A stretch of 64,000 nt of DNA from Mastigias papua. Taxonomy: Eukaryota; Cnidaria; Scyphozoa; Rhizostomeae; Mastigiidae. Under the pieces are notes generated by a model. That model made no database searches and had not been told where the DNA came from. It worked only from the letters and a program-made list of their open reading frames with translations. How positions within the stretch are numbered: the stretch's first letter is position 1; each line of letters starts with the position of its first letter. Positions 19,322 to 49,479 of the stretch are shown here, in pieces. The stretch is taken from NCBI GenBank assembly GCA_964019165.1, contig OZ025277.1, forward strand, positions 1,573,453 to 1,637,452, read 5' to 3'. Both the position numbers and the translations under genes were made by a program.

Positions 19322-19532
19322 TTACCTTCTTTCGGGTTCAATTTGAATGCATAGGACCACAAGTTTCGTGTCACATGAGAACTGTTCTTCGTTCAATGCT
19401 GGCATATAATCGGATATAGACGCACCAATCCCTCTGAAGTATGACTTTGATCTCCACCAACTTCTACAATAGTGTCCAGCAGAATGAGATAAGCCGTTTG
19501 CGTGAGATCCATGCCAAATTGCTTTATGTTTC
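19322..19532 (-). CDS. COL15A1/COL18A1-like: Multiplexin exon 26: endostatin C-terminal part, stop TAA
   Basis: 70 codons including the stop. The first base completes the Trp split with exon 25. Contains [10 protein letters not shown] (family VIWHGSxPxG), YCRSWWR (family YCEAWRT), then [15 protein letters not shown] (family YSCANRLIVLCIEN). All three Cys expected in this part are present. The protein ends a few residues after LCIQIE, so the tail is shorter than the human IENSFMT extension. Confidence 0.95.

Positions 19533-49479: not shown

Follow-up and report, generated by a model that had tools for sequence, protein, structure and literature searches.

In this study, we believe that the window (the whole stretch of 64,000 nucleotides of Mastigias papua DNA analysed here) very probably carries one cnidarian gene of the multiplexin (collagen XV/XVIII) class, whose predicted product is composed, in order, of a signal peptide, a LamG/TSPN domain, a linker of about 1,857 residues rich in Thr, Glu, Ser and Pro in which 28 repeats are dominant, an interrupted collagen rod of 412 residues, a trimerization domain, a hinge of 51 residues and endostatin. 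This supports the original prediction of a multiplexin that carries a repeat block and ends in endostatin, and the LamG exons upstream of the array strengthen it. The full predicted gene lies on the minus strand, has 21 exons encoding 2,772 residues and extends beyond the window end; 30 kb beyond that end, on the 5' side of the gene, were added to the analysis, and positions obtained with this addition are called extended coordinates. All splice junctions are predictions from genomic sequence. The 20 predicted introns are phase 0 in 19 cases and phase 2 in one, with AG at every acceptor, GT at 19 donors and GC at one. The exons and the array are as follows.

73377-72769 (extended coordinates), minus strand: exon 1, most of LamG/TSPN, outside the window (LamG profile E 2.3e-40)
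49354-49425, minus strand: exon 2, last 24 residues of LamG/TSPN (AG acceptor, GTAAGT donor, phase 0-0)
38744-44344, minus strand: exon 3, mucin-like, 1,867 residues, holds the array (open frame, phase 0-0)
39138-43495, minus strand: tandem array of 28 copies of a 156-bp, 52-residue unit (anchored units in exon 3)
34644-34688, minus strand: exon 4, first collagen exon (in-phase join to 38744)
34239-34337, minus strand: exon 5, collagen
32641-32703, minus strand: exon 6, collagen (GC-AG donor keeps the Gly-X-Y register)
31884-31928, minus strand: exon 7, collagen
31627-31689, minus strand: exon 8, collagen and start of an interruption
28604-28753, minus strand: exon 9, interruption with one Cys, then collagen
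26656-26898, minus strand: exon 10, collagen, 27 triplets
25606-25659, minus strand: exon 11, collagen
25320-25373, minus strand: exon 12, collagen
25116-25160, minus strand: exon 13, collagen
24657-24800, minus strand: exon 14, collagen
24057-24287, minus strand: exon 15, collagen with an interruption
22641-22763, minus strand: exon 16, trimerization domain (sub-threshold PF20010; PDB collagen XV match E 0.24; alignment to relatives)
22197-22283, minus strand: exon 17, hinge
21719-21784, minus strand: exon 18, hinge, direct join to endostatin (KKPY-LRLIALN here, RPYLLLMALN in Hydractinia)
21096-21290, minus strand: exon 19, first part of endostatin (PF06482; tblastn)
20509-20627, minus strand: exon 20, middle of endostatin (PF06482; tblastn)
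19322-19532, minus strand: exon 21, end of endostatin (PF06482; stop TAA at 19324-19322)

The twelve exons from 34688 to 24057 carry in-register Gly-X-Y triplets and are all phase 0, one of them with the GC donor. The rod of 412 residues holds 117 triplets and seven Gly-X-Y runs of at least three triplets, as in an interrupted helix, and matches the collagen family of Pfam (PF01391, E 2.6e-49). The C-terminal part matches endostatin (PF06482, E 3.2e-42), which multiplexins carry at this end, as well as four collagen XV, collagen XVIII or endostatin sequences in PDB (E 3.5e-35 to 1.5e-30), and the four endostatin cysteines are present. Across the genome (347 Mb, 172 contigs), the three matches to PF06482 are the three endostatin exons of this gene, and the endostatin and repeat-unit matches are both confined to this locus. 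The endostatin part (21290-19322, minus) also gave a sub-threshold match to DUF1554 (PF07588), with E 0.0005 here and E 0.0001 in the metagenome protein P0001; it was rejected as an assignment because it is under its cut-off, but it hints at a shared fold.

The trimerization exon had been claimed from the letters alone. Its place between collagen and hinge and its alignment to two relatives speak for it, whereas the profile evidence falls short: PF20010 gave 14.4 bits (E 0.042), below the cut-off of 23.8, and the top PDB match, the collagen XV trimerization domain 3n3f, had E 0.24. An extra hinge exon at 21663-21502 (minus) was tried and rejected, since its phase does not fit that of the neighbouring exons and, in relatives, the part before it runs directly into endostatin. 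The queries of the first model (Pfam, PDB and relatives) contained this exon; the reported matches rest on other parts, with the exception that the PDB alignments to collagen XVIII begin inside it. The stretch itself is open and exon-like, lies in the intron before endostatin, and has an end that aligned in the PDB search to the segment preceding vertebrate endostatin. It may be a relict or cryptic exon.

On the other side of the array, the open frame at extended coordinates 73404-72715 (minus) matched positions 7-180 of a profile built from 16 multiplexin LamG domains (E 2.3e-40), and the main LamG exon still reached E 3e-29 with a control profile of 15 domains from which Hydractinia was left out. 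The exon at 49425-49354 supplies profile positions 183-206. The frame around it gives the best LamG-profile match within the window, a weak one (E 0.16), and with the Hydractinia-free profile this frame alone ranks fourth (E 0.78). Among 589 candidate exons in 44345-64000 (minus), its acceptor takes the top five places, with 20.7 bits when the exon is cut at 49365, 15.1 in its modelled form and 11.6 for the next place; the best of 307 candidates in an opposite-strand control had 13.8 bits, little below the 15.1 of the modelled 24-residue exon. With the Hydractinia-free profile, the small exon raises the joined LamG from 99.1 to 109.6 bits (+10.5). Over 207 residues, the joined LamG and that of Hydractinia share 51% identity, and the alignment crosses both LamG-side junctions, the second of which is followed by EKTSQ in the model and by EKSSTQ in Hydractinia. 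Two LamG cysteines are present: 165 is encoded by the first exon and 222, presumed to pair with it, by the small exon. The Pfam and PDB sequence searches did not detect the LamG. Since LamG exons lie 5' and collagen exons 3' on the same strand, the array is bracketed by multiplexin exons. A predicted intron of about 23 kb splits the main LamG exon from the last 24 residues with the second cysteine.

The original prediction had the gene start at 49479, and this did not hold: that ATG falls within the intron that immediately precedes the last LamG exon, and the gene runs past the window end. The start codon was rejected because the hydrophobic stretch there is the polypyrimidine tract of the intron. 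The likely start is the ATG at 73377 (extended coordinates), in frame with a hydrophobic stretch (hydrophobicity 3.74). Inside that stretch there are likewise a polypyrimidine tract and a possible acceptor, so that the long form could owe its apparent signal peptide to the tract, as an artefact, with a separate signal exon possible further upstream.

We compared the model with 21 database proteins, which are the yield of similarity and length limits rather than a survey, and took the first five triplets in a row as the collagen start. A LamG could be placed in 19 of these proteins, the exceptions being P0001 and P0005. The linker between LamG and collagen has 16-139 residues in 17 of these 19 (three from one wasp), 674 residues in two Hydractinia-type proteins and 1,857 residues here. 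The two LamG relatives were the matches among 432 candidates of about 1,180-3,760 residues, a collection from which closer relatives may be absent. In one protein search, whose query contained much collagen and was without the last 108 residues, the best 120 of 1,671 matches were mostly collagen VII and other collagens, and only records bearing PF06482 were used.

The search for metazoan multiplexins bore out the domain order. Hydractinia symbiolongicarpus collagen alpha-1(XV) chain-like isoform X2 (P0019, 1,470 aa) and P0130 (1,472 aa) share with the model, in one protein, a signal peptide, LamG, a long Thr-rich linker at the same place, collagen, a trimerization region and endostatin; identity to these proteins is 51% in LamG and about 40-42% in NC1. 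Judged by eye, their 674-aa linkers are without a long near-identical tandem array, whereas the linker here has 28 units and is more acidic. Per 100 residues, there are up to 67 Ser/Thr in P0019 and up to 43 here. P0001 (639 aa, metagenome) has collagen, a trimerization region and endostatin, with 41% identity in NC1; it begins with a signal-peptide-like start followed by a short coil and collagen, with no LamG found and without a mucin-like block.

The array lies in a minus-strand open frame (44371-38705) of 1,888 codons. The spliced part, 44344-38744, has 5,601 bp and phase 0 at both ends, and its consensus-like donor, CAA-GTAAGT, joins in phase to the Gly-X-Y exon at 34688, which bears out the claim that the repeat exon is on the minus strand and in phase with the collagen and endostatin exons (PF01391 and PF06482). 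An in-frame stop lies directly upstream of the exon, and its first Met is at residue 197, with none in the initial 196 residues. Ser and Thr make up 697 of its 1,867 residues.

It is unlikely, we believe, that this exon is (or is also) a last exon, which would give a collagen-free LamG-mucin, either secreted or anchored in the membrane, in addition to the full collagen or in its place. Read-through of the 38744 donor would add 12 hydrophobic residues before a stop at 38705, and an AATAAA lies at 38657, 50 nt after the first base of the stop codon, though there are 38 such hexamers on this strand in 64 kb. Such a tail is short for a GPI signal. A collagen-free product is known in kind, since PMC7852327 describes a multiplexin isoform of Drosophila that lacks the collagen domain. 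However, the GTAAGT that follows 38744 resembles the donor consensus and joins collagen in phase, and the Hydractinia record has the joined form, so we keep to the reading in which the repeat exon is spliced to collagen.

The tandem array was detected at 39186-43528 with a period of 156, 27.9 copies and 96% matches. The claimed repeat length of 52 residues stands, as it is the exact distance in 26 of 27 spacings; the count does not, since 28 units could be anchored instead of 27. The remaining spacing is 51 residues, an in-frame deletion, and therefore the array is without frameshift. The 26 exact units comprise 15 distinct sequences in DNA and 10 in protein, with a mean pairwise DNA identity of 0.97. 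Shifted by nine units, the array DNA matches itself exactly over 1,499 bp, which indicates recent growth of the array by block duplication. When one unit was searched against the 347-Mb genome, with simple repeats and very common words passed over, all 28 matches were inside this array, and it therefore does not look like a satellite or transposon. Between units, pN/pS was 0.57 in the coding frame and 0.56 in one antisense frame, so the coding frame is not singled out. An antisense open frame of 1,541 codons crosses the array (39030-43655, plus), which arises because one stop-free unit is repeated. Pfam matches to DUF6725 and RWD on the repeats were rejected, as no single stretch passed by itself.

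Unequal exchange would change the length of such an array, and its copy number is probably polymorphic. The same 1,499-bp exact match at a nine-unit shift is the type of segment that is prone to mis-counting, and the array could be real while its length is an assembly artefact of collapsed or expanded copies, in which case "giant" would be wrong by several units. We think this quite unlikely: the genome is in 172 contigs, this one of 16 Mb, as would be expected of long reads, and the non-repeat flanks of the repeat exon are open.

The coiled segment that precedes collagen in Hydractinia and P0001 was not found in the intron between the repeat exon and collagen or in five other introns, so the Mastigias model differs from Hydractinia in this respect. 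We weighed a short collagen-endostatin with its own first exon in 38743-34689, as a separate gene or from an alternative promoter, with LamG and the array belonging to a neighbouring gene or another isoform. P0001, with its signal-peptide-like start, coil, collagen and endostatin and no LamG, has this form, and a signal-peptide-like start at 38534 (minus) is the best of 42 Met starts in the intron, with a hydrophobicity of 3.6; in two control stretches the best values were 2.67 among 27 starts and 2.41 among 62, and the long-form start has 3.74. Because of this score, we moved our estimate up slightly, to very unlikely. Several points speak against the reading: the hydrophobicity test is crude, none of 88 phase 0-0 candidates in 38743-34689 stood out as a coil or Gly-X-Y exon, and P0019 holds LamG, a Thr-rich linker, collagen and endostatin in one protein.

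We return to the single long protein and the nature of its linker. Mucin-like (PTS) sequence is commonly defined by at least 40% Ser+Thr and 5% Pro per 100-residue window. The 1,857-residue linker has 37.4% Ser+Thr and 17.4% acidic residues, and 658 of its 1,758 hundred-residue windows reach 40% Ser+Thr with 5% Pro, with a maximum of 43 Ser/Thr per 100. As in mucins, the tandem repeats lie in one large exon, all 28 units being in the single predicted exon of 5,601 bp. Judged from its composition, the linker is mucin-like, yet it is more acidic than that of Hydractinia and its peak density is lower. The array (1,455 residues) has 39.3% Ser+Thr and 17% Glu, and with 10 acidic against 6 basic residues in the consensus unit, the net charge would be negative even without sugar. 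Acidic residues beside Thr may lower O-glycosylation. The earlier wording "probably O-glycosylated" is thus softened: O-glycosylation of the array is plausible but, with 39% Ser+Thr and 17% Glu, borderline. Glycosaminoglycan side chains are common in vertebrate multiplexins, and we did not count them as obligatory for the class. The glycosaminoglycan motif SGxG is absent from the entire 2,772-residue model, which has ten SG dipeptides, and for this reason O-glycans are likelier than glycosaminoglycans.

We speculate that three chains would assemble through the C-terminal trimerization domain (NC1), so that each rod would carry three long, extended, acidic and probably partly O-glycosylated arms. 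In basement membrane or mesoglea, these arms could keep the LamG heads at a long distance from the rod and could fill or hydrate space, and proteolysis in the hinge could release endostatin, as in vertebrates. The linker is most likely an extended, hydrated, acidic spacer between the LamG heads and the trimeric rod. If each residue contributes 0.25 nm in a glycosylated mucin and 0.29 nm in a triple helix, the array of 1,455 residues would be around 360 nm long, or some three times the length of the rod.

Vertebrate collagens XVIII and XV share with the model a TSPN, an interrupted collagen, a trimerization domain, a hinge and endostatin or restin. Studies have shown that multiplexins occur in echinoderms and collagen XV/XVIII in Nematostella (PMC10381214, PMC5395295). 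The array had been presented as new against the known collagens XV and XVIII. Its unusual length stands, but several precedents reduce the novelty of the arrangement, beginning with the 674-aa block of Hydractinia. The Nematostella vectensis "Collagen XVIII-like" chain has a predicted mucin-like insertion (eLife 2025 matrisome, PMC12549020); the likeness rests on the description of the insertion in that text, which does not give its sequence, length or exact place. The long human collagen XVIII has a mucin-like domain (PMC10702473), which we liken to the linker by its presence and not by its place relative to TSPN. The account of collagen XV in PMC7852327, which gives the layout of this collagen, puts the whole human alpha1(XV) chain at 1,388 aa, shorter than the linker here (1,857), and cites Muragaki et al. 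1994, a paper that, by its title, describes a tandem repeat within the N-terminal domain of the human collagen XV chain. Among the matches listed in open-licence literature, no title or abstract mentioned a multiplexin with a giant tandem array. The array stands out for its unusual length and recent expansion, while the architecture itself is already known in kind from other cnidarians. Given the Nematostella insertion and this gene, a bristle-bearing multiplexin may be widespread in cnidarians. The gene illustrates what length the non-helical arm can reach in an endostatin collagen. Cnidarian mesoglea serves both as matrix and as hydrated filler, and a gene that is probably variable in repeat number offers a defined test case.

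A wider proposal, which we hold to be rather improbable, is that the repeat exon acts as a spacer of variable length from which two products arise. When spliced, it would yield a collagen trimer whose three arms each measure several hundred nanometres; if left unspliced at 38744, it would yield a collagen-free, possibly membrane-anchored LamG-mucin using the AATAAA at 38657; and a start near 38534 could give an armless short collagen. If this were true, copy number would tune the matrix spacing between individuals.

Some smaller features were noted in and around the gene. Long (AT)n microsatellites lie inside collagen introns at 32224-32594 and 27962-28270, a minisatellite of 17 bp x 8 (44781-44917) lies just 5' of the repeat exon, and another of 82 bp x 3 (19562-19805) lies in the last intron. 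Rfam at gathering scores gave no match in the window or in the 30 kb upstream, and Pfam gave none at 54675-55019, which we had suspected to be a reverse-transcriptase remnant. The next gene on the same strand, 14889-10301 (minus), may be a pyrimidine 5'-nucleotidase (UMPH-1): PF05822 matched at 10301-10483 just under its cut-off (E 0.00014), and we take the SDFDMTLTRY stretch at 14737-14889 to be UMPH-1-like.
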